Below, one piece after another: positions 1 to 11,435 of a stretch of DNA of 11,435 bases. The notes below the pieces were generated by a model. That model did not search any database. It had not been told where the DNA came from and saw only the letters and a list, made by a program, of their open reading frames with translations. This DNA is from Sphingobium sp. (GTDB lineage Bacteria; Pseudomonadota; Alphaproteobacteria; Sphingomonadales; Sphingomonadaceae): positions 1 through 11,435 of the forward strand of contig JAGVJS010000345.1 in the NCBI GenBank assembly GCA_020051025.1, written 5' to 3'. Within the stretch, counting starts at the first letter, position 1. Every line of letters starts with the position of its first letter. Made by a program: the position numbers and the translations under genes.

Positions 1-1058
1 GGCTGGGGCGCACCGGTCAGGTGCAGGTCGTCAGCCTCGATCATTGTGCCGTCACGCAGAACCAACGCGCGCTGAAGCACATTGCCCAGTTCGCGGGCAT
101 TGCCGCGCCAGTTATGGGCGCTCAGCTTGTCCATGGCGGCAGCGGTCGGCCAGACGAAACCGGCCTTGCCCATGTCCTGCTGGCGCAGGAGCATGGCGGC
201 GGCGATCGCAGCGACATCACCGGGACGCTCGGCCAGCGGGCGCAGTTCCAGCGGCATGACATTGAGGCGCCAGTAAAGATCTTCGCGGAAGCGACCGGCA
301 GCCACTTCATCGACCAGGTTACGGTTGCAGGCCGCGATGATGCGGACATTGACCGGCACCGGATGGGTGGCGCCGACGGGGAGGACTTCGCCTTCCTGAA
401 GCGCACGCAGCAGCTTGGACTGGAGTGTCAGCGGCAGTTCGGCGATTTCGTCGAGGAACAGCGTGCCGCCATCAGCGGCAAGGAACAGCCCTTCCGAAGC
501 GTTGGACGCGCCGGTGAAGCTGCCCTTCTTATGGCCGAACAGCATCGCTTCCATCATGGTTTCGGGCAGCGCGGCGCAGTTGACGGCGATGAAGTCATGG
601 GCGGTGCGGCCGGATTGGGCGTGCAGGAAGCGCGCCATGCCTTCCTTGCCAGTGCCGGTGTCGCCCTGAATAAGGACGGTGGCGTCGCTGCGCGCGACAC
701 GGCCGGCCAGCGTCATCAGGCGAGCACTGCCGCTGTCACCGACCGCCGGAACCGATGCCGGGCGAACGAGTTCAGCAATCAGGGCAAAGGCAAAACCCAT
801 GTCGGCGATGCCAAACGCCACGCGGGCCGGCAGGCCGTTGGCGGCAGCGATCAGCGACGGGGCGCCGTCATGCACGTTGATCAGGATATCGCGATGCGTG
901 GCGTGACCAATTTCGGTCGCCAGCAGGATGCGCCGGTCGTCCCGTTCACGGGGGCTGGCGGCGTCGACGATGCGAACAGTGTAATAGGCATTTTCAAGCC
1001 AGTGCTGCAGCCCCGGAAGAAGCGCGCAGACTCCACGGCTCACGTCAAGCATAGACAT
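1..1058 (-). CDS. Sigma-54-dependent flagellar transcriptional activator (FlbD/FlrC-like), C-terminus outside window
   Basis: Bacterial enhancer-binding protein that would use ATP hydrolysis to open sigma-54 promoters. I translated 352 codons on the minus strand without a stop. The AAA+ core shows Walker A GDTGTGKE (residues 132-139), a GAFTGA-loop variant GSFTGA (179-184), Walker B GGTLFLDE (197-204), an arginine-finger region RFREDLYWRL (256-265) and sensor II NWRGNARELGN (316-326). The first ~115 residues resemble no canonical receiver domain and I see no obvious phosphoacceptor Asp constellation, as in Caulobacter FlbD. A Fis-type HTH would be expected beyond the window edge. The ATG at 1058 has a weak purine-rich stretch (GGGG) upstream; a second in-frame ATG is two codons later. 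It diverges from flagellin, and two perfect sigma-54 promoters lie elsewhere in the window, so control of flagellar genes is the natural role. The FlbD assignment rather than FlrC/FleQ is inference. Confidence 0.93.
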   Translation of the reverse strand, partial: MSMLDVSRGVCALLPGLQHWLENAYYTVRIVDAASPRERDDRRILLATEIGHATHRDILINVHDGAPSLIAAANGLPARVAFGIADMGFAFALIAELVRPASVPAVGDSGSARLMTLAGRVARSDATVLIQGDTGTGKEGMARFLHAQSGRTAHDFIAVNCAALPETMMEAMLFGHKKGSFTGASNASEGLFLAADGGTLFLDEIAELPLTLQSKLLRALQEGEVLPVGATHPVPVNVRIIAACNRNLVDEVAAGRFREDLYWRLNVMPLELRPLAERPGDVAAIAAAMLLRQQDMGKAGFVWPTAAAMDKLSAHNWRGNARELGNVLQRALVLRDGTMIEADDLHLTGAPQ

Positions 1059-1155
1059 GAACAGACCCCATGTTTTGGGCGGTTTGTGCCCCCGCACGTC
1101 CCAGCCCCCTTCGATGGTTAATAAATACCCGTTCTGTGGTTATCAGATAGTTAAC

Positions 1156-1183
1156 GCCGCAAGGCGGCTTGCCGCAGGGCGGC
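1156..1183. repeat. Alternating GCCGC/GCGGC inverted-repeat block
   Basis: Four 5-bp arms alternate in orientation: GCCGC (1156-1160), GCGGC (1164-1168), GCCGC (1171-1175), GCGGC (1179-1183), with spacers of 3, 2 and 3 bases. Each neighbouring pair can form a tiny hairpin, or the array could present spaced half-sites to a protein. High G+C makes short arms like these common by chance, but the regular phasing is notable in a control region. Function is unknown. Confidence 0.5.
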
Positions 1184-1193
1184 AGCTTTTTTC

Positions 1194-1210
1194 CGGCAAA
1201 AGCGGCAAAT
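1194..1210 (+). promoter_or_regulatory. CGGCAAA direct repeats, possible activator-binding site
   Basis: CGGCAAAA (1194-1201) and CGGCAAAT (1203-1210) are direct repeats with a 9-bp period, inside a run of T-rich and A-rich sequence. They resemble, from memory, the CGGCAAA-containing ftr elements bound by FlbD in Caulobacter flagellar promoters. They lie about 100 bp upstream of the sigma-28-type flagellin promoter and 135 bp upstream of the divergent regulator gene, so they could serve flagellin control or autoregulation. The binding protein is inference. Confidence 0.4.
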
Positions 1211-1217
1211 TTTTCGA

Positions 1218-1230
1218 CCTTAGTCTAAGG
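1218..1230. promoter_or_regulatory. Perfect palindrome CCTTAG-T-CTAAGG, possible operator
   Basis: Two 6-bp arms flank a single central T. It lies between the CGGCAAA repeats and the flagellin promoter, a plausible operator position. No known regulator can be assigned from the motif. Confidence 0.35.
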
Positions 1231-1308
1231 CGCGCGCGTCGCGCCCGCGTAAGGGCCGTTCGCGACCACCCGATTCGTCCCGATTCCGAAAAAAATCGAC
1301 TCCGGTGC

Positions 1309-1335
1309 TAAAAGCTTTCCGCACCCCGCCGTTAT
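1309..1335 (+). promoter_or_regulatory. Sigma-28 (FliA) promoter of flagellin
   Basis: TAAA at 1309-1312, a 15-nt spacer, then GCCGTTAT at 1328-1335. The enterobacterial FliA consensus is TAAA-N15-GCCGATAA, so the -35, the spacing and six of eight -10 bases agree. Transcription would begin near 1342, giving a leader of about 60 nt. FliA is encoded in the same window, and the -10 core CCGTTAT recurs in front of flgM. Confidence 0.8.
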
Positions 1336-1403
1336 CCCCTTTCGAGGCCGCAAGCGCTCTGACTGATGGCAGCGACCTGATTGATGAATGGAAAGGGAAC
1401 ACC

Positions 1404-2213
1404 ATGACTGTTATCGCAACCAACACCGCTGCTCTGCGCTCGGCCAACGCTTCTTCGTCGGCCAGCAAGGCTCTGGGCACTGCAATGGAACGCCTGTCGA
1501 CCGGCAAGCGCATCAACAGCGCCAAGGACGACGCCGCCGGCCTGGCCATTTCGTCGGCCATGACCGCCCAGATCCGCGGCATGACCCAGGGCGTCCGCAA
1601 CGCCAATGACGGCATCAGCCTGGCGCAGACCGCAGAAGGCGGACTGAACGAAGTCAGCAACATGCTGCAGCGTATGCGTGAACTGACCGTCCAGGCGCTG
1701 AACGGCACCAACGACACCGATGCCAAGACGAACATCCAGGCGGAAGTCGCCCAGCTCCAGACCCAGATCACCGACACGCTGACCAACACCGAATTCAACG
1801 GCACCAAGCTGTTCGACGGTTCGACCGGCACCGTGACGATCCAGGCCGGCGCGAATGCTGCGGACACCGTGGATATCACGCTCGACAACGTGAGCACCGC
1901 GATGACCGCCGCGCTGGCAATCGACGCCACGACCGCGACGACGGCTTCGCTCGACACGTTCGACACGGCTCTGGCTTCGATCGCGACGACCCGCGCCAAC
2001 CTCGGTGCGGTGCAGAACCGCCTCGAATCGACGGTCAGCAACCTGACCAACAACATCACCAACCTGACGGATGCCCGCAGCCGCATCGAAGACGCCGACT
2101 TCTCGGCCGAAACGACCGCGCTGGCCAAGCAGCAGATCCTGAGCCAGGCGTCGACCGCGATGCTGGCCCAGGCCAACCAGAGCCAGCAGGGCGTGCTGAA
2201 GCTGATCGGCTAA
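1404..2213 (+). CDS. fliC: Flagellin, compact D0-D1 type
   Basis: Filament subunit secreted by the flagellar type III system. The 269-residue protein begins [13 protein letters not shown] and contains the N-terminal D0/D1 helices (about 1-135, with [20 protein letters not shown] at 31-50) and the C-terminal D1/D0 helices (about 195-269, with [12 protein letters not shown] and the ending [11 protein letters not shown]). The middle (about 140-190) is short and rich in Thr/Ala/Asp; there is no room for the D2/D3 outer domains of enterobacterial flagellins. No cysteine is present. The start at 1404 is chosen for its AAAGGGA ribosome site at 1392-1398 and because the conserved flagellin N-terminus begins there; the upstream in-frame GTG at 1305 overlaps the promoter. 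[10 protein letters not shown] (88-97) keeps the classical TLR5-contact pattern. Expression is probably under FliA. Confidence 0.97.
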
Positions 2214-2228
2214 TAGCCGGCACCAGAT

Positions 2229-2264
2229 TGGTCGGCTGAGGTATTGGTCACCGCCAGCCGACCA
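2229..2264 (+). repeat. Stem-loop 1 downstream of flagellin
   Basis: TGGTCGGCT (2229-2237) pairs with AGCCGACCA (2256-2264), 9 bp without mismatch around an 18-nt loop, starting 15 nt after the flagellin stop. There is no T tract, so it may protect the 3' end of the abundant flagellin mRNA rather than terminate. Confidence 0.55.
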
Positions 2265-2266
2265 TG

Positions 2267-2308
2267 GTGCCCCCGGCACATCAACAGTCCCCACCGTGCC
2301 GGGGGCGC
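2267..2308 (+). repeat. Stem-loop 2 downstream of flagellin
   Basis: GCCCCCGGCAC (2269-2279) pairs with GTGCCGGGGGC (2296-2306), 11 perfect G+C-rich base pairs around a 16-nt loop, extendable by a U-G and a G-C pair to 2267/2308. No T tract follows. It stands 2 nt after stem-loop 1. Confidence 0.6.
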
Positions 2309-2333
2309 ACCTTCGATCGAACGGCCAGAATTT

Positions 2334-2370
2334 AGAAGCCTCCGTCCCCCCGGGCGGAGGCTTCTTCATT
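2334..2370 (+). terminator. Rho-independent-type terminator of flagellin
   Basis: AGAAGCCTCCG (2334-2344) pairs perfectly with CGGAGGCTTCT (2355-2365) around a 10-nt C-rich loop, followed by the modestly T-rich TTCATT. It is the third hairpin in the flagellin-opgG interval and the most terminator-like. It leaves only about 45 nt for an opgG promoter; I found no convincing one, so some readthrough from flagellin cannot be excluded. Confidence 0.75.
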
Positions 2371-2412
2371 ACGACATGGATACAAGTCTTGGCTCGGTCG
2401 TTTTCCCCGTCC

Positions 2413-3912
2413 ATGATGACGTCCATGACCCAGATCGACCGGCGCGCGATGATCGCCGCCTCCGCCGCCGCCCTGCTGCTCCCCGACACGCTGCTCGCCC
2501 AGACGAAAGGCGCTGCCTTTTCCTGGGACACGTTGATCGCGTCGGCGCAGCGCCTGTCGCGCACCCCTTATAAAGAAGTGCCTCGCCATCCCGGCGCGGC
2601 GAAGGTCGACTATATAGCGCAACATGAGGCGCGGTTCCGCGACGAGCGGACGCTGTGGAACGACCTGCCCGGCGATACCGGAATACGCTTCTTTCCCCTG
2701 TCCCAATATTCGACCCAGCCGGTGCAGATCGCCACCGTCGAGAAGGGCCGGGCTATCCCGCTGCGCTATGATCCGACCATGTTCGACATGCCGGCCGACA
2801 ACGCCGTTGCCAAACTCGGACCGGATGCGGGCTTTGCCGGTTTCCGCATCATGAATGCCAAGCGCGACGGCGACTGGCTGTCGTTTCTGGGCGCCAGTTA
2901 CTTCCGCGCGCCCAGTCCGCAGAAACAGTTCGGCATGTCGGCGCGCGGCATCGCGATCAACACCAGCCTGCCGGGCAAGGAGGAGTTTCCCGCCTTCACC
3001 CATTTCTGGCTGGAGCGGACCGGCAATAGCAGCGTCACTATATATGCCTTGCTGGATGGCCCGTCGATCACCGGCGCCTATCGTTTCGTCAGCAGCCTGG
3101 GACCGGACGGCGTGAAGCAGGACGTGACCGCCGCGCTCTTCCCTCGCCGCCCGATCCAGGAACTGGGGCTGATGCCGATGACCAGCATGTTCTGGTATAA
3201 TCAGGCGAACCGGACGCAGGGCACCGACTGGCGCCCGGCCGTGCATGACAATGACATGCTGTCGATCGCCGGCGCCGACGGCACCGCCCATGTCCGCCCG
3301 ATCGTCAATCCGTCCGCCCCGCATTTCAGCGCTTTTACCGAAGTCAGCCCCAAGGGGTTCGGCCTGTTGCAGCGCGACCGGGATTTCAGCCATTATCAGG
3401 ATGACGGCGTCTTCTACGATCGCCGCCCGTCTCTTTGGGCCACGCCCAACAAGCCATGGGGCAAGGGACAGGTTAGGCTCTACGCCTTTCCCACCGACAG
3501 TGAATATACCGACAATGTCTGCGCCTACTGGACGCCGGACGGCGTGGCGCAACCGGGCAAGCGGATCGACGCCAGCTATCATCTGGACTGGTCGGCCGCG
3601 CGGGCGCCGGCATCGGCTGGGCTGGCCATCGTCCAGAATGTCTGGCGCGGCCATAGCGAGCAGAAGGGCGCGGAAAAGCTGGTGATCGACTTTGCCGGCG
3701 TGGCGGCCGATCCCAAACCCGGCATCTGGGTCGATGTGAGCGGCGGCACCATTGCCAAGCAGGCGGGCTATCCGGTTCTGGGACAGGACGGGCTGTTCCG
3801 CACAGTGCTTGATGTCGTGCGTCCAGAGGGTAAAGCAGCGGACATCCGGCTGCAATTGCGGTCGGGTGATCGTGCGATCAGCGAATATGTCCATTATCCG
3901 CTGGGTGCGTGA
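2413..3912 (+). CDS. opgG: Periplasmic glucan biosynthesis protein, OpgG/OpgD (MdoG) family
   Basis: OpgG acts in the periplasm on the beta-1,2-glucan backbone of osmoregulated periplasmic glucans; E. coli OpgG/OpgD were reported to be founding members of glycoside hydrolase family GH186. The 499-residue product shows family signatures: GASYFRA (160-166), FPAFTHFWLE (192-201), RPAVHDNDML (274-283), GFGLLQRDRDFSHYQD (315-330), YDRRPSLWATP (335-345), WGKG (349-352) and DNVCAYWTPDG (367-377), followed by an Ig-like C-terminal part. The N-terminus carries RRAM (10-13), an Ala/Leu-rich stretch and a likely LLAQ cleavage site. The twin arginine suggests Tat export, which is typical of OpgD rather than OpgG, so the paralogue is not certain. 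Start is ambiguous: ATGs at 2413, 2416 and 2425 are in frame and none has a good ribosome site. opgH follows 62 bp downstream. Confidence 0.93.
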   Translation: MMTSMTQIDRRAMIAASAAALLLPDTLLAQTKGAAFSWDTLIASAQRLSRTPYKEVPRHPGAAKVDYIAQHEARFRDERTLWNDLPGDTGIRFFPLSQYSTQPVQIATVEKGRAIPLRYDPTMFDMPADNAVAKLGPDAGFAGFRIMNAKRDGDWLSFLGASYFRAPSPQKQFGMSARGIAINTSLPGKEEFPAFTHFWLERTGNSSVTIYALLDGPSITGAYRFVSSLGPDGVKQDVTAALFPRRPIQELGLMPMTSMFWYNQANRTQGTDWRPAVHDNDMLSIAGADGTAHVRPIVNPSAPHFSAFTEVSPKGFGLLQRDRDFSHYQDDGVFYDRRPSLWATPNKPWGKGQVRLYAFPTDSEYTDNVCAYWTPDGVAQPGKRIDASYHLDWSAARAPASAGLAIVQNVWRGHSEQKGAEKLVIDFAGVAADPKPGIWVDVSGGTIAKQAGYPVLGQDGLFRTVLDVVRPEGKAADIRLQLRSGDRAISEYVHYPLGA

Positions 3913-3913
3913 A

Positions 3914-3942
3914 GGGAACCGTCGGCGTATTGAGCGGTTCCC
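3914..3942 (+). repeat. Small stem-loop between opgG and opgH
   Basis: GGGAACCG (3914-3921) pairs with CGGTTCCC (3935-3942), 8 bp around 13 nt, starting two bases after the opgG stop. No T tract follows, so it may tune the opgG:opgH ratio or stability rather than end the transcript. Confidence 0.5.
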
Positions 3943-3974
3943 CTAACTTGGGTCAATCGCGATAGGGCTTGCAC

Positions 3975-5864
3975 ATGACGGGGAACGGGGGCGTGCAGGC
4001 GCCGCAGGACGATGCGGAGAGCAAGCCTTTGGCGCGCGCATTCGAACAAGTACCGGCGGAAAGCCCGTTGGCGATGCCCGAGCAGGATTTCGGCGCAAAG
4101 CCTGACCTGACCCTGCGCCGTCCGCTCAACATCGACATCTGGGCGCGTCGGCTGCTGGTCGTGTTGCTCGCCCTGTTGCCCGCCGCGATGGCCGGGCATG
4201 AGATGCGGCAGTCGATCGGTCTGGATGGCATCGATCTCGTCGAAGGCATCTATCTGGCCCTCTTCATCCCGCTGTTCGCCTGGATCGCCTTCGGCTTTGC
4301 CACCGCGATGATTGGTTTTCTGCTGCTGACCGTAGGCGGCGGACGCAGCGTTACCCCCCGCCCGCTCAATGCCGCCACGCCGCTCAAGGGCAAGACCGCG
4401 ATCCTGCTGCCGGTGTGCAATGAGGATTTTCTGGGCGTGCTCGGCCGGCTGTCGATCATGGAACGATCGCTGGCGCAGGTGATGGGTGGCGAGCGGTTCG
4501 AATTTTTCATCCTGTCGGATTCCAATGTCGAAAGCGGCGAGACGGAGCGGCGCGCCTATCTGGAAATGCGCGGCTCCTTCTCCCGCCCCGTCCATTATCG
4601 CCGCCGCGCGCTCAACATCGGGCGCAAGCCGGGTAATATCGCCGAATGGGTGACGCGCTTCGGCGGAGCCTATGACTATATGGTCGTTCTGGACGCGGAC
4701 AGCGTCGTGAGTGGCCAGACCATGGCCCGCCTCGCCGCCGACATGGAGCGGCATCCGCATGTCGGCCTGATCCAGACGGTGCCCACGGTGATGGGCGCCG
4801 CGACGCTGTTCGCCCGCTGGCAGCAGTTCGCCAGTCGGCTGTTCGGCCCGACGTCGGCCGCGGGCATGATCTGGTGGGCAGGGTCCGAAGGCATGTTCTG
4901 GGGCCATAATGCGATCGTGCGGGTCAGCGCCTTTGCGCAGAGTTGCGGTTTGCCCGAACTGCCGGGACGCGCGCCCTTTGGCGGCCATATATTGAGCCAC
5001 GACATGCTGGAGGCCGCGTTGCTGCGCCGGCGAGGCTGGGACGTGCATATGGTCACGGCCGATGATAGTTTCGAGGAATTCCCGCCGTCCATGCCCGATC
5101 TGTTCACCCGCGACCGCCGCTGGTGCCAGGGCAATATCCAGCATGTGCCGCTGCTGGTGAAGATCAAGGGGCTGCACCCGGTCAGCCGGTTCCAGCTGCT
5201 GGTCGGCGCTTCAGCCTATTGCACATCGCCGCTGTGGCTGTTGCTGATGCTGGTGGTTCTGGGCGGCGCGATCAGCGGGCTTTGGCCGCCGACCGCTGTG
5301 TTGCCCTCAGGCGGGTTGCTGGCGCTGACCGTGGTGCTGCTGTTCGGGCCGAAGATATTGGCGATAATCTGGGCCATGGCCGATCCGGCCCGGCGCATCG
5401 GCTTTGGCGGCGCGGTACGAATGACGCGCGGCGTGATTGCCGATATCCTGCTATCCATCCTGATGGCGCCGGTGGCAATGCTGACCCAGACGATCAACCT
5501 GTTCGGCATATTGATGGGCAAGAAGGCGAGTTGGAACGGGCAGACCCGCGACCGCGACGGCATGGCCATCACCAGCGCGATCTGGCTGTTCAAATGGCAT
5601 CTTTTGCTGGGCGTGGCGCTGACCGCGATGGCGGTGAAGGCGGGTAGCGTGGCATGGATGTCGCCGGTACTGGCGGGGCTGTTCGCCGCGCCGATCCTGG
5701 CGGCGGTGACCGCACGCAAGGATCTGGGCCGCCGGGCCGAGGAAAGCGGCCTGTTTCAGGTCGCCGATCCGTGGTGGCGGACGCAAAGCTATCGTCCGCT
5801 GCGGTTCCGCTGGCCCAATGGCGACAAAAAGGATGTGGGACCGCTCGCGGCAAACGACGAATAA
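3975..5864 (+). CDS. opgH: Glucan glucosyltransferase OpgH (MdoH), short form
   Basis: Inner-membrane family GT2 enzyme that makes the linear beta-1,2-glucan backbone from UDP-glucose and passes it to the periplasm, where OpgG acts. The 629-residue protein has hydrophobic segments at about 59-74 and 91-121, then the cytosolic glycosyltransferase domain: ILLPVCNED (143-151), FFILSDSNV (177-185), the VLDADS motif (238-243, D240/D242), GHNA (310-313), the acidic SHDMLEA (341-347, D343) and RDRRWCQGN (379-387), the OpgH form of QxxRW. Several membrane spans follow (about 405-580). E. coli OpgH is 847 residues; this one has a shorter N-terminal cytosolic part and tail. ATG 3975 is preceded by AGGG (3964-3967); a TTG two codons earlier (3969) is possible. 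Forms a two-gene unit with opgG. Confidence 0.95.
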   Translation: MTGNGGVQAPQDDAESKPLARAFEQVPAESPLAMPEQDFGAKPDLTLRRPLNIDIWARRLLVVLLALLPAAMAGHEMRQSIGLDGIDLVEGIYLALFIPLFAWIAFGFATAMIGFLLLTVGGGRSVTPRPLNAATPLKGKTAILLPVCNEDFLGVLGRLSIMERSLAQVMGGERFEFFILSDSNVESGETERRAYLEMRGSFSRPVHYRRRALNIGRKPGNIAEWVTRFGGAYDYMVVLDADSVVSGQTMARLAADMERHPHVGLIQTVPTVMGAATLFARWQQFASRLFGPTSAAGMIWWAGSEGMFWGHNAIVRVSAFAQSCGLPELPGRAPFGGHILSHDMLEAALLRRRGWDVHMVTADDSFEEFPPSMPDLFTRDRRWCQGNIQHVPLLVKIKGLHPVSRFQLLVGASAYCTSPLWLLLMLVVLGGAISGLWPPTAVLPSGGLLALTVVLLFGPKILAIIWAMADPARRIGFGGAVRMTRGVIADILLSILMAPVAMLTQTINLFGILMGKKASWNGQTRDRDGMAITSAIWLFKWHLLLGVALTAMAVKAGSVAWMSPVLAGLFAAPILAAVTARKDLGRRAEESGLFQVADPWWRTQSYRPLRFRWPNGDKKDVGPLAANDE

Positions 5865-5883
5865 GGCATCGTAAGCGGAAAAG

Positions 5884-5916
5884 GGCCTGAGACAGGCTCA
5901 GGCCGAAAGGGCTTTT
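5884..5916. terminator. Terminator after opgH, possibly bidirectional
   Basis: GGCCTGAG (5884-5891) pairs with CTCAGGCC (5897-5904) around a 5-nt loop. On the plus strand a TTTT run follows at 5913-5916; on the minus strand CTTTTCC follows directly. It separates the rightward opgGH unit from the leftward fliA operon. The rest of the convergent gap to 6052 holds no gene I can support, only a small CGACAT/ATGTCG hairpin at 5960-5974. Confidence 0.65.
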
Positions 5917-6052
5917 GTGCAGGCTATTTCCGTTAACTTCGCACATTTCCCGCTGATTTCGACATTTCATGTCGCAGGAAGGACATTATCTTTCCAACAT
6001 GGGGCCGAGCGGACCGAGCCAGCGTGGGGCATTATCGCACAGGAGCCATGCT

Positions 6053-6076
6053 GTAGGACAGCGACCCCTGCCCTAC
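6053..6076 (-). repeat. Stem-loop immediately after fliA
   Basis: Read on the minus strand, GTAGGGCAG (6076-6068) pairs with CTGTCCTAC (6061-6053), 9 bp including one G-U, with a 6-nt loop, one base after the fliA stop codon. No T run follows, so it is a stabilising or weak terminating hairpin, with the 5884-5904 stem-loop as a backup. Confidence 0.45.
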
Positions 6077-6077
6077 C

Positions 6078-6809
6078 TCAATCGTCCCAGTCGCGCAGTT
6101 TCTCGCGCAGCTTGTCGAGTGCGGCCTTCTTGATCTGGCAGACGCGTGCGGCGCCGATGTCCAGCGTCTGGCCGATTTCCTCCAGGTTCATTTCCTCGAC
6201 GAAGTAGAGTTGCAGCACCAGCGCCTCGCGCTGGGGCAGTTCGCCGATGCAGGCGGCCAGCGCCTTCTTCAGCGATTCCCGCTCCATGATATCGTCGGCG
6301 CGGTCCTCCACATCGGCAAACCACATGGACTGGTCGGAATAGACTTCGTCCATGCTGGTATGCTGGACCATTTCGACGCTGTCGGCGATCTCGCGATAGG
6401 CGGCGGGTTCCAGCCCCATGTCGACGGACATTTCCGCTTCGGTCGGCAGGCGGCCGAGCTTCTGTTCCAGCCGATTGCGGACACCGGCAAGTTCTTTCCG
6501 CCTGGCCATTGCCGACCGGCAAATCGTTGCCTGCCGCCGCAGATGGTCGATCATCGCACCGCGCACGCGTAGCTGGGCATAGGCGGCAAAGCCAAGGCCG
6601 CGATCCTCGAAACTGTTGGCAGCCTCAACCAGCGCGACCATGCCGATCTGGAGCAGATCTTCCATCTCGATCGCGGTCGAGACGCGGCCATGGACATGCC
6701 AGGCGATCTTGCGCACCAGCGGCATATATTGGCGGGCGAGGCGTTCCGGACTGTTTTCGCCGGGTTTACCATAAGTATGGGCGCCGGCCGTTATCTTGTT
6801 CATATACAT
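6078..6809 (-). CDS. fliA: RNA polymerase sigma factor FliA (sigma-28)
   Basis: Flagellar sigma factor that directs polymerase to late genes such as flagellin. The 243 residues match the normal FliA length. Region 2 covers about 25-92 (YMPLVRKIAW, DLLQIGMVALVEAANSFED, FAAYAQLRVRGAMIDHLRR), region 3 about 95-145 (LGRLPTEAEM at 118-127), and region 4 about 189-237 (LPQREALVLQLYFVEEMNLE, then the HTH ending ARVCQIKKAALDKLR). ATG 6809 is preferred over ATG 6803 because an ideal AAAGGAGG ribosome site sits 7 nt upstream. It lies 14 bp after flhA and is most simply transcribed from the sigma-54 promoter ahead of the transglycosylase gene. Its inhibitor FlgM is encoded 3.4 kb upstream, and FliA-type promoters precede flagellin and flgM. 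Confidence 0.97.
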   Translation of the reverse strand: MYMNKITAGAHTYGKPGENSPERLARQYMPLVRKIAWHVHGRVSTAIEMEDLLQIGMVALVEAANSFEDRGLGFAAYAQLRVRGAMIDHLRRQATICRSAMARRKELAGVRNRLEQKLGRLPTEAEMSVDMGLEPAAYREIADSVEMVQHTSMDEVYSDQSMWFADVEDRADDIMERESLKKALAACIGELPQREALVLQLYFVEEMNLEEIGQTLDIGAARVCQIKKAALDKLREKLRDWDD

Positions 6810-6816
6810 GGCTCAG

Positions 6817-6824
6817 CCTCCTTT
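6817..6824 (-). promoter_or_regulatory. Strong ribosome site of fliA touching the flhA stop codon
   Basis: AAAGGAGG on the minus strand (6824-6817), spaced 7 nt from ATG 6809. Its first A is the last base of the flhA TGA. This arrangement decides the fliA start and suggests translational coupling of FliA to FlhA. Confidence 0.8.
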
Positions 6825-8941
6825 CAGGCGACCCGTTCGCGTTGCGGCAACGGATCGTGGCGTGGCGCCGGGCGATCATTGCCCACCACTGCGACCACCT
6901 CGACGCCCTTGCCGTCGGGAATTTCGAGGAAGGACAGCACCGGCGTTTCGGGCAGATGCGGTTTGAACAGGCGAGCGAGCGCGCGGCGCGCCACTGGTGA
7001 AGTGACGATCGCGAAGGCCCGCGCCTGACCCATTAACGGACGGGCGGCGTCGATCACGGCTTCGACGATGCGGTTGGCGAGCGCCGGTTCGATCGGATGT
7101 TTGGCATCGCCGGCGACGCGCATGGCCTGCGCCAGCAGCCCTTCCAGATCGCCATCGAGCGTGATGACGGGTAGCGGCATCTTCACCGGGACGAGACCCT
7201 GGATGATGAGCGCGCCGATGCGCTGACGCACCGCTTCGACCAGTTGCTCGTGACTCATGTCCGGGCGAGCGGCATCAACCATGGCTTCGCAGATGCGGCG
7301 GAAATCCTTGAGCGCGATGCCTTCGGACAGGAGCGCGCGGCAGAGCGCGCTGATCTGGGTCAGGCTGAGCGTGCCGGGCGTCAGGCCGTCGACCAGTTGC
7401 GGCGCGGCGTCCTTGAGATTGTCGAGCAGCTTGCGCGCTTCGTCCAGGCCGAACATTTCCGATGCGTTCATGGCGATCAGCTGATTGAGATGCGTCGCCA
7501 CGACCGTCGGCGGATCAACCACCGTATAGCCCGCGACCACGGCTTCGCTGCGCTTGCCCTGCGGAATCCAGACGGCGTCGAGGCCGAAGGTCGGATCTTT
7601 GGCGGCGCGGCCGGCGACAGTGCCTTCCAGTGCGCCGCTATCGAGCGCGAGCAGGTCTTCGGGCCAGATTTCATCTTCGCCCACGACGACGCCGGCGATG
7701 GTGATGCGATACTGGTTCGGTTCCAGCGCCAGATTGTCCTTCACGCGGACCATCGGCACGACGAAGCCCAGTTCCTTCGACAGCTGGCGACGAATGCCGG
7801 TGATACGGGCCATGAGCGGCGCACCCTTGCGCTCGTCCACCAGGCTGATGAGACCATAGCCGATTTCGAGGCCCAGGACCGCGCCGTCCGATACATCGTC
7901 CCATTCGATGACGGCCGGATTGGGCGGCGGCGCGACGGGCGCGGGTTCGGCAGCCTTTTTCTGGCTGGCCTTGCGCAATTGCCAGGCGATGCCACCGGCG
8001 ATCGCCGCGGCGGTCAGGATGATGATGTGCGGCATACCGGGCAGGACGCCCAGAAAGCCCAGGATCGCGGCGACCGGCACCCAGGCCTTGCCCGATCCGA
8101 ACTGGCTGGCGACCTGGCCCGACAGATCCTGTTCGCTCTTGACGCGGGTGACGATGGACGCCGCCGCGATGGAGAGCAGGAGCGCGGGAATCTGGGCGAC
8201 CAGCGCGTCGCCGATGGCGAGGATGACATAGGTTTGCGCGGCTTCGCCGATCGGCAGCTTATGGCTGACGACGCCCAGGATGATGCCGCCGACGATGTTG
8301 ATCACCAGGATCAGGATGCCCGCGACCGCGTCACCCTTCACGAACTTGCTGGCACCGTCCATCGAGCCGTAGAAGTCGGCCTCGGTCGCGACTTCCTGAC
8401 GGCGGATCTTGGCTTCTTCGGGCGTCATCAGGCCGGCGTTGAGGTCGGCGTCGATCGCCATCTGCTTGCCCGGCAAGGCATCCAGGGTGAAGCGGGCGGA
8501 CACTTCGGACACGCGGCCCGCACCCTTGGTGATGACGACCAGGTTGATGATCATCAGGATCGCGAAGACGAAGATGCCCACGACATAGTCGCCGCCGATC
8601 AGGAAGTGACCGAAAGCTTCGATCACCTGCCCCGCGGCGTCCGATCCTTCATGGCCGGACACCAGCACGACGCGCGTCGACGCCACGTTGAGCGCAAGGC
8701 GCAGCAGGGTCGCGAACAGCAGCACCGTTGGGAAACTGGAGAAATCGAGCGGCTTGGCGGCGTTCAGCGCCACCATCAGCACGGCCAGCGAGATCATGAT
8801 GTTGGTGATGAAGCCGATGTCCAGCATGACCGCCGGAACCGGCACCATCATGAACAGCACGACCATCAACGTCGCGAAAGGAAGCACGGCTCCCTTTGCG
8901 GCGCTCATCCAGATCTTCGCTTTGACTTGGGCAGGAGACAT
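6824..8941 (-). CDS. flhA: Flagellar type III export gate protein FlhA
   Basis: Membrane component of the flagellar export gate; its cytosolic domain forms the ring that docks export chaperones and substrates. The 705 residues compare with about 692 in E. coli. The N-terminal half (about 15-335) is strongly hydrophobic with the expected multiple spans, and includes the FHIPEP family signature at about 143-166 (RVSEVSARFTLDALPGKQMA). A Lys/Pro/Ala-rich linker (about 344-363) precedes the cytosolic domain from about 365, which contains ITIAGVVVGED, YTVVDPPTVVATHLNQLI and a conserved C-terminal part. ATG 8941 starts 9 bp after the transglycosylase stop; a GGAAGG (8959-8954) overlapping that gene's end is the likely, rather distant, ribosome site. 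No flhB or flhF follows; fliA does. Confidence 0.97.
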   Translation of the reverse strand: MSPAQVKAKIWMSAAKGAVLPFATLMVVLFMMVPVPAVMLDIGFITNIMISLAVLMVALNAAKPLDFSSFPTVLLFATLLRLALNVASTRVVLVSGHEGSDAAGQVIEAFGHFLIGGDYVVGIFVFAILMIINLVVITKGAGRVSEVSARFTLDALPGKQMAIDADLNAGLMTPEEAKIRRQEVATEADFYGSMDGASKFVKGDAVAGILILVINIVGGIILGVVSHKLPIGEAAQTYVILAIGDALVAQIPALLLSIAAASIVTRVKSEQDLSGQVASQFGSGKAWVPVAAILGFLGVLPGMPHIIILTAAAIAGGIAWQLRKASQKKAAEPAPVAPPPNPAVIEWDDVSDGAVLGLEIGYGLISLVDERKGAPLMARITGIRRQLSKELGFVVPMVRVKDNLALEPNQYRITIAGVVVGEDEIWPEDLLALDSGALEGTVAGRAAKDPTFGLDAVWIPQGKRSEAVVAGYTVVDPPTVVATHLNQLIAMNASEMFGLDEARKLLDNLKDAAPQLVDGLTPGTLSLTQISALCRALLSEGIALKDFRRICEAMVDAARPDMSHEQLVEAVRQRIGALIIQGLVPVKMPLPVITLDGDLEGLLAQAMRVAGDAKHPIEPALANRIVEAVIDAARPLMGQARAFAIVTSPVARRALARLFKPHLPETPVLSFLEIPDGKGVEVVAVVGNDRPAPRHDPLPQRERVA

Positions 8942-8950
8942 TGCGGCCGA

Positions 8951-9766
8951 TTACCTTCCGAGGGTGGCAAGCATGAGATAGGCGAGGCGCGCCGTCTGCG
9001 GTTGCGGCTTGACCATGATATCAGGCTGCTCGCTGAGGCGCTGGGTTTCGATCCGCACATAATCGGCGGGCTGGACGGTCTTCGCGCCGGCAGGCAGCGA
9101 TGCGTCGGCATATTGGACAGGGCCGCCCAGGCTATCGACGCCCTTTTGCAGCTTGGATGCGAAGCGGTCGCGGATTTCCGCGAAGCTGCGGGCATTGCCC
9201 TGCTTGTCGTAGAAGATGGAGCGGTTGGAGCGGGCGGCCGACGGGAACATCGACGCGGCGCTGGCGCCCGGCGCACGATCATGGACCGACAGGAATTTCG
9301 ACGCGCCGCCGACGCCCAGGAAATGCGCCAGGTAGAGGTCGACCGGCTGAGCGTCCCGGCCAAGCTTCGATTCAAGATAGGCCTTGTTGTCGGCAGCATG
9401 TTCCGCCGCCATCACCGAGGCTGTTTCTGGATTCTTGCGCAGGTCGAGTATCTGCTTACGCAGGTCCGGATCGGCGACATAATAGCGGCCACCGCTTTGC
9501 TGAATCGCATTGGCGGCCCAGCCCAGACCATATTCGCCGCCATGCTTGTCGATGACGGCGAGCCAGCTCTGGTCAATGAACTGATAAAGGCCGGTGGCGG
9601 ACGATGTGGCCGCGCGAGCCGTGGGATTGAGGCTCGATTCGATCTTGGCCTGCCCCAGCAAATAGGAGAAGTCGACACCAGTACGGCGGCTCGCCATCGC
9701 AATCGCGTTGGTCACGCGATTGCCCGTCGAACTTCCGGTTGCTGATATGTCTGCGAAAGCGGACAC
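8951..9766 (-). CDS. Flagellar-cluster lytic transglycosylase (SLT family)
   Basis: Predicted peptidoglycan-cleaving enzyme that would open the wall for the rod and hook. The SLT fold is seen in AKIESSLNP (about 40-48; candidate catalytic E43), the SATGLYQFIDQSWL stretch (56-69) and AHFLGVGGASKFL (about 137-149). The C-terminal ~80 residues are of unknown function. The start is a choice: GTG 9766 gives 271 residues and has a GAGGA ribosome site (9779-9775) 8 nt upstream, while the longer GTG 9781 lacks one and would leave almost no leader after the sigma-54 start site. Neither start gives an obvious Sec signal peptide, so export by the flagellar apparatus, as for FlgJ, is possible but inferred. 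First gene of the operon with flhA and fliA. Confidence 0.88.
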   Translation of the reverse strand: MSAFADISATGSSTGNRVTNAIAMASRRTGVDFSYLLGQAKIESSLNPTARAATSSATGLYQFIDQSWLAVIDKHGGEYGLGWAANAIQQSGGRYYVADPDLRKQILDLRKNPETASVMAAEHAADNKAYLESKLGRDAQPVDLYLAHFLGVGGASKFLSVHDRAPGASAASMFPSAARSNRSIFYDKQGNARSFAEIRDRFASKLQKGVDSLGGPVQYADASLPAGAKTVQPADYVRIETQRLSEQPDIMVKPQPQTARLAYLMLATLGR

Positions 9767-9801
9767 GACTAAAATCCTCACTTGCTAGCGAGGATATTAG
9801 A

Positions 9802-9816
9802 GCAATGTTTGTGCCA
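9802..9816 (-). promoter_or_regulatory. Sigma-54 promoter of the transglycosylase-flhA-fliA operon
   Basis: On the minus strand TGGCAC (9816-9811), five bases, TTGC (9805-9802): an exact match to the sigma-54 consensus with GG-N10-GC spacing. Transcription would start near 9790, about 24 nt before GTG 9766. A sigma-54 activator gene lies in the same window. Confidence 0.92.
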
Positions 9817-9857
9817 AGATTTGGTTAACGCGGGTAAGGGATTCGTGCTCTGAAACG

Positions 9858-9880
9858 AAAAACGGCGCCCGAAGGCGCCG
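9858..9880 (-). terminator. Rho-independent terminator after the flgN-like gene
   Basis: On the minus strand CGGCGCC (9880-9874), a TTCG tetraloop, GGCGCCG (9869-9863), then five T. A compact textbook terminator. It closes the flgA-flgM-flgN unit 25 nt after the flgN-like stop and insulates the sigma-54 promoter that follows. Confidence 0.92.
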
Positions 9881-9905
9881 CTTTAGCCGAAAGTCGTAAT
9901 ATTTT

Positions 9906-10214
9906 TCAGCGGCCGTAGGTCAGCGGCGCGGCCTGCGCGCCGTGGGCAGCAAGAATGGCAAGGCGCTGTTGCGCATGATCGGCCAGCAGCTTGACGCGCA
10001 TGCGGGCACTGTCGATCAGCGGCATCATCACGCTCAACCGTTCCAAGACAGCCGGGTCGGAACGCCAGGCGCCGATCGCGCGAACGGACGAGGCCGCGCG
10101 ACTGACACGATTGCTGGCAAGTTCGATCGCGGCGGCATCAGTGCCGTCGAGCACATCGCGAAGATCCTCGAACGCATCGAACAGATCATCCAGCGCGGCC
10201 AAACCCAGCGGCAT
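9906..10214 (-). CDS. FlgN-like flagellar export chaperone (small helical protein)
   Basis: A 102-residue protein, predicted largely helical, without cysteine, signal peptide or membrane span. It begins MPLGLAALDDLFDAFEDLRD and is rich in Ala, Leu, Asp and Arg. I recognise no sharp motif; the call rests on size, helical character and position directly after flgM, where FlgN (chaperone of the hook-filament junction proteins FlgK/FlgL) is found in many bacteria. Start ATG 10214 has AAAGGAT (10227-10221) 6 nt upstream. It lies 14 bp after flgM and is followed by a strong terminator, so it is co-transcribed with flgM. Confidence 0.6.
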   Translation of the reverse strand: MPLGLAALDDLFDAFEDLRDVLDGTDAAAIELASNRVSRAASSVRAIGAWRSDPAVLERLSVMMPLIDSARMRVKLLADHAQQRLAILAAHGAQAAPLTYGR

Positions 10215-10228
10215 GACTATATCCTTTA

Positions 10229-10504
10229 TCAGGCCGCCGACAGGTCGAGTGCGATCATGCGCTCGGCAATGGCGGACGGGTTTACCGGGTAATTGCCCGA
10301 TGCAATGGCCGATTTGATGGCCGCGATACGGTCCATGTCGACCGGGGCGCCTTCGGCGGCCATGCGCGCGGCAGGGCTGCTCGACGTAGCGGCGGTGGCG
10401 GCCGTGGTCGATCCGGTGGTGGCAGTTGCGCGCGTCTTTGTGCCTTCCCGCAGGCGGGAAGCCTCAATGGCGGCGCTGATATTCTGGCCCACAGACTTGA
10501 TCAT
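10229..10504 (-). CDS. flgM: Anti-sigma-28 factor FlgM
   Basis: FlgM binds FliA and blocks late flagellar transcription until it is exported through the completed hook-basal body. The 91-residue protein has an N-terminal part (1-25), a low-complexity Ala/Thr/Ser linker (about 26-50), and the conserved FliA-binding C-terminus: VDMDRIAAIKSAIASGNYPV (55-74) followed by NPSAIAERMIALDL. This fits the family's unstructured N-half and helical C-half. ATG 10504 is chosen because GAAGGA (10517-10512) lies 7 nt upstream; the upstream in-frame GTG at 10519 has no better site. A FliA-like promoter at 10561-10535 suggests feedback control, as in enterobacteria; flgA readthrough can also supply it. Confidence 0.93.
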   Translation of the reverse strand: MIKSVGQNISAAIEASRLREGTKTRATATTGSTTAATAATSSSPAARMAAEGAPVDMDRIAAIKSAIASGNYPVNPSAIAERMIALDLSAA

Positions 10505-10534
10505 TGGAAAATCCTTCACTCGTCCCTACTGACT

Positions 10535-10561
10535 ATAACGGACAAGTTCAAAAATCATTAA
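10535..10561 (-). promoter_or_regulatory. Candidate sigma-28 promoter of flgM-flgN
   Basis: On the minus strand TTAA (10561-10558), 15 nt, TCCGTTAT (10542-10535). It has the same spacing and the same CCGTTAT core as the flagellin promoter, but a weaker -35 and first -10 base. Start would be near 10528, 24 nt before ATG 10504. Its -35 half lies inside the 3' end of flgA. Confidence 0.6.
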
Positions 10562-11138
10562 ATCCCGGAACGCGCACAACGCCCATTTCTACGACCTGGG
10601 CGAAAATCGGTGCGCTTTTCCTGTCTTCACGCACGCGAATCGTCTCGCCCATGGCGCCATCCTCATCCGCTACCATCATGCGCGACACGCTGAAAGCGGC
10701 GTTGCCGGCCATCAATTGCACCGGATCACCCTTGCGCACGACCGCTTCCTTCGCGACGGCGGGCGCCGGGCGGGTGAAGCGATTGGCGGCACCATAGGTA
10801 GAGGCGGTCCGGGGCAGCAGGCCGGAGGCAGCAGCGGCCGATCCGGCGACCAGCGGCACGCGGATACGCCAGTTCAGAGCATCGCACTTCACCATTGCGG
10901 CACCGAAGATCGGCCCTTCCACGCTGGGGATGGTCGGGCAGGCGGCCAGACGCAGGCGGCGATCGACCGGCGCGGCGGGACCGCCCGGTTCACCCAAATT
11001 AGCGCCGACGGTCATCGCCACCAGCGAATCGATGCGGTCGAGATTCTCGAATTTCTGGCTTCCCTGCGCCTGGGCCATCGCGGGCGATGCGCCCATCAGC
11101 GCGGCGGCAGCGAGGAAGAGGGCGGAAAATCGGAACAC
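10548..11138 (-). CDS. flgA: Flagellar P-ring assembly chaperone FlgA
   Basis: Periplasmic protein needed to assemble FlgI into the P ring. The 196 residues start with a Sec-type signal (MFRFSALFLAAAALMGASPA, cleavage near AMA-QA at 22/23). Two cysteines (C67, C85), spaced as in FlgA proteins and able to form a disulfide, are followed by NWRIRVP (89-95). The C-terminal SAF/beta-clip region (about 130-192) includes VVRKGDPVQLMAGNAAFSVS and ends VVRVPG. The start is GTG 11138, with AGGAG (11150-11146) 7 nt upstream; the nearby ATG 11143 is out of frame. A perfect sigma-54 promoter lies 41 bp upstream of the start. flgM follows with a 43-bp gap. Confidence 0.92.
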   Translation of the reverse strand: MFRFSALFLAAAALMGASPAMAQAQGSQKFENLDRIDSLVAMTVGANLGEPGGPAAPVDRRLRLAACPTIPSVEGPIFGAAMVKCDALNWRIRVPLVAGSAAAASGLLPRTASTYGAANRFTRPAPAVAKEAVVRKGDPVQLMAGNAAFSVSRMMVADEDGAMGETIRVREDRKSAPIFAQVVEMGVVRVPGFNDF

Positions 11139-11179
11139 GGCATGTCTCCTGACGGAAATACGGTCTTGTCAGGATTTCA

Positions 11180-11194
11180 GCAATTTTCGTGCCA
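11180..11194 (-). promoter_or_regulatory. Sigma-54 promoter of flgA(-flgM-flgN)
   Basis: On the minus strand TGGCAC (11194-11189), five bases, TTGC (11183-11180): the second exact consensus match in the window. Predicted start near 11168, about 30 nt before GTG 11138, and 7 bp after the end of the upstream OmpA/MotB-like gene. Confidence 0.92.
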
Positions 11195-11201
11195 AATATG
11201 A

Positions 11202-11435
11202 TTAACGACCAGCCGCGATATGGATCAGCTGCCCCTGCCCTGCCCGGCCATCCCCCTGATCAAGGCCGCGAATGCGCAACCTGTCCTGAGCGATGCCGTC
11301 CATGCGCAAGGCGCGTGCGACAGCCCCCAGACGGGCGGCGGCCAGATCCCAATCGTCGAAGCGCTGCTGGCCCCGGTCAGACCCTTCGCTACGGATTTCC
11401 AGCCCGCCCGGCGCCTGCGCAAAGCGCTTCGCCAC
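11202..11435 (-). CDS. C-terminal end of an OmpA/MotB-like peptidoglycan-binding protein (partial)
   Basis: Only the last 77 residues are in the window; the frame is open at the right edge, and the GTG there is probably an internal codon. The visible part fits the second half of an OmpA-C/MotB domain: GLEIRSEGSD corresponds to the beta strand and IxGHTD loop, WDLAAARLGAVARAL to the NxxLSxxRAxxV helix, then GIAQDRLRIRGLDQG. The Asp and Arg that typically contact diaminopimelate seem retained (EGSD, AAAR). Position ahead of flgA suggests a MotB-type stator or related flagellar protein, but a general OmpA-family protein cannot be excluded without the N-terminal transmembrane helix. Confidence 0.7.
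   Translation of the reverse strand: MAKRFAQAPGGLEIRSEGSDRGQQRFDDWDLAAARLGAVARALRMDGIAQDRLRIRGLDQGDGRAGQGQLIHIAAGR

Follow-up and report, generated by a model that had tools for sequence, protein, structure and literature searches.

The 11,435-nucleotide stretch of Sphingobium DNA considered here (contig JAGVJS010000345.1; hereafter the window, meaning the stretch at its full length) is, as read from its sequence, a piece of an ordinary-looking Sphingobium flagellar cluster with conserved sigma-54 and sigma-28 (FliA) switches. The explanation I favour, at a probability of roughly 0.7, is that CtrA would switch on a sigma-54 activator, that the activator and sigma-54 would in turn lead to FliA and its anti-sigma factor FlgM, and that a cluster of non-alphaproteobacterial origin would here stand under the native CtrA. 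The source genome measures 2.44 Mb and is 61% complete, and the FliA it encodes shares 95-96% identity with the FliA of several Sphingobium species.

The regulators that the initial annotation had recognised are indeed encoded in the window, all on the minus strand. The product of fliA (6078..6809) scores above the cut-offs of two family models (TIGR02479, 213.2 against 189.6; NF005413, 210.3 against 201), as does that of flgM, the anti-sigma-28 gene (10229..10519; TIGR03824, 51.4 bits against 40.75). The sigma-54 activator, or enhancer-binding protein (EBP), is partial (3..1097, with a likely ATG start at 1058) and matches PF00158 at 217.6 bits. For the sites upstream of these and other genes, the window was set beside the best 80 of 418 relatives' loci from a genome collection. 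The number of loci for each gene is the number in which the gene was found with sufficient upstream sequence, and so differs by gene; the window is not counted for motA, flgB and flgG. Shuffle controls refer to non-redundant sets, allow up to one mismatch and are given as the mean of 20 dinucleotide shuffles.

The sigma-54 pattern TGGCAC-N5-TTGC occurs exactly twice in the window, both times on the minus strand, where 0.02 matches are expected and 0/200 shuffles contained two. One match, TGGCACAAACATTGC (9802..9816), precedes the slt-flhA-fliA operon and is exact in 48/71 loci, with one mismatch in 20/71; the other, TGGCACGAAAATTGC (11180..11194), precedes flgA and is exact in 62/73. With up to one mismatch, the slt site is found in 56/58 non-redundant loci and the flgA site in 63/70, against shuffle means of 0.25 and 0.4. 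Beyond the window, an exact site precedes flgB in 64/65 loci (0/65 on the opposite strand) and flgG in 33/68, and among eight genes compared besides flgA and slt only the activator (6/58) and flhA (6/78) have one. Exact -24/-12 elements at conserved positions before flagellar genes are what marks these as probable sigma-54-dependent promoters, and the two that the initial annotation had placed in the window hold as it described them. In the source genome the exact pattern occurs 10 times against two for its reversed form: four sites precede flgA, slt, flgB and flgG, one a GlnK-like gene and five lie inside open reading frames (flgB, flgG and the GlnK-like gene were named from reading the sequences). 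The rpoN gene lies outside the window; RpoN has one match per genome in all 13 genomes picked for this search, 10 of them Sphingobium with a close FliA and three, from other genera, chosen for an FlhA of alphaproteobacterial (alpha) type.

Late genes carry a different element. The FliA-type promoter TAAA-N15-GCCGTTAT before fliC (1309..1335, plus strand) is exact in 40/59 loci, has one mismatch in 16/59 and is the sole exact match in the 2.44 Mb of the source genome; 43/46 non-redundant loci have it with up to one mismatch, against a shuffle mean of 0. With up to one mismatch, such a site also precedes motA in 49/65 loci (non-redundant 42/58, shuffle mean 0). The site before flgMN (10535..10561, minus strand) is the weakest, being a variant, TTAA-N15-TCCGTTAT, that lies two mismatches from the pattern under which the initial annotation had listed it beside the exact fliC site; a relaxed pattern recovers it in 25/46 non-redundant loci against 0.15 in shuffles. 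Part of this conservation may reflect coding, since its -35 part falls within the last codons of flgA. Thus, a conserved element before late genes, as expected of FliA-dependent promoters, is clear for fliC and motA and present as a variant for flgM. Taken together, the positional conservation of both kinds of site, well above shuffles, bears out the proposed wiring in which sigma-54 would serve flgA and slt-flhA-fliA, and FliA would serve fliC and flgMN. In joined clusters of same-genus genomes, further FliA-type sites occur before fliL in 2/6 genomes (G166, near 42945; G189, near 43136), and a FliA-like string, TAAAGGTGG...GCCGATA, lies 107-119 bases before flgJ in 5/6, inside the upstream gene; it may be either a late flgJ-flgK promoter or a trace of coding conservation.

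At the top of the cascade, the pattern TTAACY-N5-NTAA is found before the activator in 46/58 loci but never before the nine other genes examined, with about 0.03 expected per set in composition shuffles; in the non-redundant set it occurs in 27/43 loci, against a shuffle mean of 0. In the window this CtrA-type site is TTAACTATCTGATAAC (1139..1154, minus strand), followed at 1114..1121 by TTAACCAT, a possible second half-site (half-sites were tabulated for each locus), and in relatives it mostly takes the form TTAACCAT-N4-TAAC with slight variation. One analysis of the activator upstreams covered 47 of the 58, 38 of them non-redundant. Both the CtrA consensus, TTAA-N7-TTAA, and the variant TTAACCAT are quoted in the available portion of PMC6180460. 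A CtrA orthologue is present in 12/12 genomes (the 13 above minus G011) at 76-80% identity, and 65-68 of the 77 positions of its DNA-binding domain are the same as in Caulobacter. For Sphingomonas melonis, PMC7713065 and PMC8921679, as far as their available text goes, cite CtrA as the master regulator of flagellar genes or of motility. CtrA is therefore the likely top regulator of the predicted cascade. The half-site TTAACCAT also stands before fliL (G247, G189) or fliO (G247, G166) in joined clusters. Separately, a conserved TTAACCATTTTTTATC, possibly a CtrA site, was seen in four loci, next to a transporter-like gene in L251, L254 and L262 and next to a Sel1-like gene in L258 and L262.

The N-terminal domain of the activator itself is receiver-like, on weak fold matches, and its AAA+ domain lies close to those of FlrC, FleQ and NtrC1; a full-length relative (L051) is 423 amino acids long and carries a Fis-type helix-turn-helix (HTH_8). 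Its sigma-54 contact loop reads GSFTGA rather than GAFTGA, as in nearly all relatives (for example L051:15786-17054), the exceptions being L086 and L100, which have GAFTGA; the alignment used 27 of 52 full-length sequences. Several close relatives carry the database name FlrC, and no FleQ Pfam domain was reported up to E 1 in two full-length relatives. FlbD, the Caulobacter type, was considered and rejected: the 365-residue piece in the window scores 273.7 against 750 with the NCBIfam model, over the AAA+ part only.

Between the CtrA-type sites and the start of the activator lies a leader hairpin (1080..1103, minus strand; loop GGGG) whose inner helix is intact in 27/27 chosen loci. These were hand-picked from the 58, all with a CtrA-type site, so that the count is not that of a random sample. 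Two of the four inner-helix pairs change on both sides (UA in 23 loci and CG in 4; GC in 15 and AU in 12). The percentage of paired cells, the covariation score and the number of cells in which both sides change were reached in 0/500 shuffles and the number of pairs changed on both sides in 3/500, whereas the count of further pair types was not above shuffles (286/500). A scan for the hairpin form across the same loci and the clusters returned 44 before the activator and 18 elsewhere, the latter comprising four copies of the activator hairpin itself in the clusters of G241, G247, G189 and G166, nine terminator-like hairpins of GTCC type, which by their position belong to the fliC-opgG region, and five scattered ones. 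An ATCGAA box upstream of the hairpin is invariant across the 27 aligned loci. As a guess, the hairpin could control translation of the activator.

Where might this cluster have come from? In a tree of 63 FlhA rows picked across families (13 sphingomonad, 21 other alphaproteobacterial and 29 others), the 13 sphingomonad rows fall together (100/100) and group with non-alphaproteobacterial rows (100/99 with eight of them, 100/100 with 20), apart from the 21 alphaproteobacterial rows even though these include two from the same order and one from the same family besides 18 from the same class. An approximately unbiased (AU) test rejects a joint clade of the sphingomonad and the 21 alphaproteobacterial FlhA (p 1.1e-6). 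FlbT and FliX were matched in 0/10 Sphingobium genomes, the 61%-complete genome of the window included; both are present in 3/3 relatives chosen for alpha-type FlhA. Together with the FlhA grouping, this makes the system look like an imported flagellum under native CtrA. By the FlhA tree, the cluster would not descend from Alphaproteobacteria and would have come under native CtrA in the Sphingobium lineage; it may have been transferred horizontally as a whole. One of those three relatives (G045, locus L208) belongs to the same GTDB family and has alpha-type FlhA, FlbT and FliX and no close FliA, so that, by their genes, two kinds of flagellum exist within one family. FlgM is rare in Alphaproteobacteria, with matches in 17/389 sampled genomes of the class (13 over the cut-off), seven of the 17 in this family and 10 outside it, in a sample that includes genomes without flagella.

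The gene order of the window fits into a larger cluster. On its minus strand an OmpA/MotB-like end is followed by flgA, flgM, a gene in the flgN position, the SLT-like gene, flhA and fliA; beyond fliA come opgH, opgG and fliC on the plus strand and then the activator on the minus strand, cut by the window edge. Of six same-genus genomes read, four (G241, G247, G189, G166) have flgK to flgB on one strand and then motAB-flgA-flgMN-slt-flhA-fliA, with opgHG and fliC beyond fliA on the opposite strand, followed by activator-fliE-fliF. In three of the four, fliG and more fli genes come after fliF and fliD and fliS lie farther on; the G241 contig stops once fliF has ended. Neither G251 nor G149 was found to have the part from fliC onward beside fliA. 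The genes of these clusters were named from their position and from a reading of their sequences. The cascade is thus not "complete" in the window, as the initial annotation had it: rpoN lies elsewhere, the activator is cut off, the likely top regulator CtrA is outside, and flgB, motAB, fliD and the operons from fliE onward were found on other contigs or read in relatives.

The genes, the sites and their conservation were established in silico, and from them I infer how the factors would act at each site. Phosphorylated CtrA would switch on an operon of the sigma-54 activator, fliE-fliF-fliG and more basal-body genes; the activator and the single RpoN would then switch on flgB onward, flgA and slt-flhA-fliA. 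Because flgMN lies directly behind flgA, read-through could supply FlgM early and its own FliA promoter could do so later; FlgM would keep FliA in check until the hook is finished and FlgM itself is exported. Freed FliA would then drive fliC, flgMN, motAB and flaG/fliD. Provided that FlgM is exported as in other bacteria, placing fliA under sigma-54 and fliC and flgMN under FliA would amount to the usual checkpoint on hook completion. I entertain, at slightly less than even odds, a fuller scenario in which an imported cluster with its own activator and FliA/FlgM checkpoint replaced the alpha-type flagellum of some sphingomonads, was captured by CtrA through the one activator-fliE promoter, gained translational control from the leader hairpin and had the top of its cascade rewired within the family.

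Several observations weigh against the cascade and the origin proposed here. The site counts are not independent, because the 80 loci are related. The CtrA-type site, TTAA-N7-NTAA, is one base short of the full consensus; its pattern is not clearly enriched across five genomes (15 against 12 in the control), none was found within 400 bases (fewer at the end of a locus) before ctrA in 11/12 genomes, and 12/58 activator upstreams lack it. The remaining 23 of the 81 loci have an unreadable activator upstream, some because a contig or stretch ends there, and in G251 and G149 no activator was found within the 60 kb around fliA. Sigma-54 activators number five in the 61%-complete source genome and seven to 12 in 12 same-genus genomes, so that another activator could act at the flagellar sites, where the role of the one in the cluster is judged from its position. 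The flgM site is absent or altered in several loci, including Sphingobium sp. SYK-6. The initial annotation had proposed scanning the whole genome for both promoter patterns; the sigma-54 pattern came through, but matches to the FliA pattern, one mismatch being allowed, were not enriched, at eight against 10 for its reversed form. As for the origin, FlhA is the only protein for which a tree was built, the AU test was run after that tree had been seen, the sphingomonad FlhA branch is long (1.76), and 9/29 non-alphaproteobacterial rows sit on the alphaproteobacterial side.

The lack of enrichment of FliA matches, together with the overlap of the flgM -35 part with flgA coding sequence, is what one would expect if the FliA-type and sigma-54-type strings were chance matches or conserved for other reasons. 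One of the eight FliA matches is a chance one, from the terminator-like hairpin at 9859-9885. Yet four of the eight stand before fliC, motA (as judged from relatives) and two genes that resemble flaG and fliD, and strings that recur at a similar offset before the same genes over many loci and fall near zero in shuffles make such an account very improbable. I also find it quite unlikely that the cluster runs as a stand-alone hierarchy of Vibrio/Pseudomonas type, headed by the activator itself as a FleQ- or FlrA/FlrC-like master with no direct part for CtrA. Eight of the 12 loci without a CtrA-type site (L100, L104, L114, L118, L120, L121, L124 and L126) have a sigma-54 site with up to one mismatch before the activator instead, four have neither, and one further locus has both. 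Sphingosinicella is an example of a lineage with such a sigma-54 site. These sites suggest rewiring or autoregulation; autoregulation or a higher activator would suit a stand-alone hierarchy, as would the database name FlrC. It has to contend, however, with the CtrA-type site in most activator upstreams, the presence of CtrA in every genome searched, its cited mastery of motility in S. melonis and the absence of a reported FleQ domain from the two full-length relatives.

Vertical inheritance, unlikely in my estimate, would have FliA/FlgM and this type of FlhA ancestral in Alphaproteobacteria and kept in sphingomonads, with the placement of FlhA an artefact of long-branch attraction. The long branch and the 10 sampled genomes of the class with FlgM outside the family are in its favour; it is opposed by the AU result, post hoc as that is, and by three genomes, one from the same family and two from the same order, that have alpha-type FlhA, FlbT and FliX. 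An imported cluster under CtrA, with sigma-54 and FliA below it, remains the explanation I prefer.

The SLT-like gene (8951..9781, minus strand), first of its operon, falls just below the PF01464 cut-off (20.1 bits against 21.3), and flhA (6824..8941, minus strand) is above the TIGR01398 cut-off (843.8 bits against 772.1). The assignment of flgA (10548..11138, minus strand) is weaker: it exceeds the PF13144 cut-off (38.6 bits against 23.8), though not that of flgA_cterm TIGR03170 (42.5 against 54.65). The gene in the flgN position (9906..10214, minus strand) was assigned by position, with no family match in profile searches, and a terminator-like hairpin with a T run (9859..9885, minus strand) was read in the sequence after flgMN. 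The OmpA/MotB-like C-terminal piece (11206..11435, minus strand) has an OmpA match below the cut-off (E 0.078) and occupies the motB position of relatives. Flagellin fliC (1404..2213, plus strand) has both PF00669 and PF00700. Between fliA and fliC, opgG and opgH, for osmoregulated periplasmic glucan synthesis (2296-5864, plus strand), are both present in 43/80 loci; in L094, L096, L100 and L103, for example, they were not both found between fliA and fliC, and fliC is still near.

How does this arrangement compare with systems already described? In Caulobacter crescentus, CtrA stands on top and the activator is within the fliF-containing operon. Sphingobium would share both traits with the Caulobacter CtrA - FlbD/sigma-54 - FlbT/FliX scheme; unlike it, its late genes have FliA-type sites, its activator fails the FlbD model and FlbT and FliX were matched in none of the 10 Sphingobium genomes. 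The contrast that the initial annotation drew with Caulobacter thus survives for the late genes, although FliA and FlgM are not new to alphaproteobacteria, and the Vibrio/Pseudomonas design that it saw instead applies to the lower half, where sigma-54 middle genes, FliA late genes and FlgM recall those polar hierarchies, and not to the top, where the CtrA-type site before the activator is Caulobacter-like. Furthermore, fliA lies in a sigma-54 operon in Sphingobium, whereas Pseudomonas fliA is described as constitutive in the available text of PMC3930126.

Among sphingomonads, Sphingopyxis granuli TFA has a comparable set, 39 genes in a row that include fliA, flgM, a putative sigma-54 activator and two flagellins, where the window has one fliC; missing ctrA expression was offered there as an explanation for flagellar repression without oxygen (available portion of PMC6472365, which gives neither a promoter map nor an origin nor a CtrA site for that cluster). 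In Sphingomonas sp. WG, the available text of PMC8921679 reports that fliA was not found in two flagellar clusters and describes their regulation as Caulobacter-like, so sphingomonads appear to hold both kinds of flagellum. CtrA as flagellar master, proposed here for Sphingobium, is cited for S. melonis from work (Francez-Charlot 2015) that may already cover part of the CtrA/sigma-54/FliA order. The possible novelty lies in the pairing of an imported cluster with a CtrA-type site upstream of its activator. Such a pairing would offer a testable case of an imported multi-gene machine placed under a host master regulator. If true, the input would be determined by exchange of a single promoter, a CtrA site or a sigma-54 site, before the activator, with the sigma-54 and FliA tiers left unchanged. 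According to a 2025 abstract (PMC12826043), Alphaproteobacteria have no known flagellum-specific sigma factor, a statement on which the conserved FliA-type sites of Sphingobium and the FliA of Rhodobacter sphaeroides Fla1 (PMC7277832) both bear.

The closest worked-out wiring is that of R. sphaeroides Fla1 (FleQ/FleT, sigma-54, FliA and FlgM), likewise alphaproteobacterial and thus a precedent for FliA and FlgM in this class. In the available portions of PMC7277832 and PMC6180460, Fla1 is reported as horizontally acquired, with fliA and flgM made by the sigma-54 tier and flagellin by the FliA tier. Sphingobium resembles such an imported flagellum in that its export-gate FlhA falls outside the alphaproteobacterial clade, and differs in having one RpoN match and one activator seen in the cluster, where Fla1 is described with its own rpoN copy and two activators. 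Finally, CtrA is reported in R. sphaeroides to control the other system, Fla2, whereas in Sphingobium it is the activator of the Fla1-like cluster that has the CtrA-type site before it.

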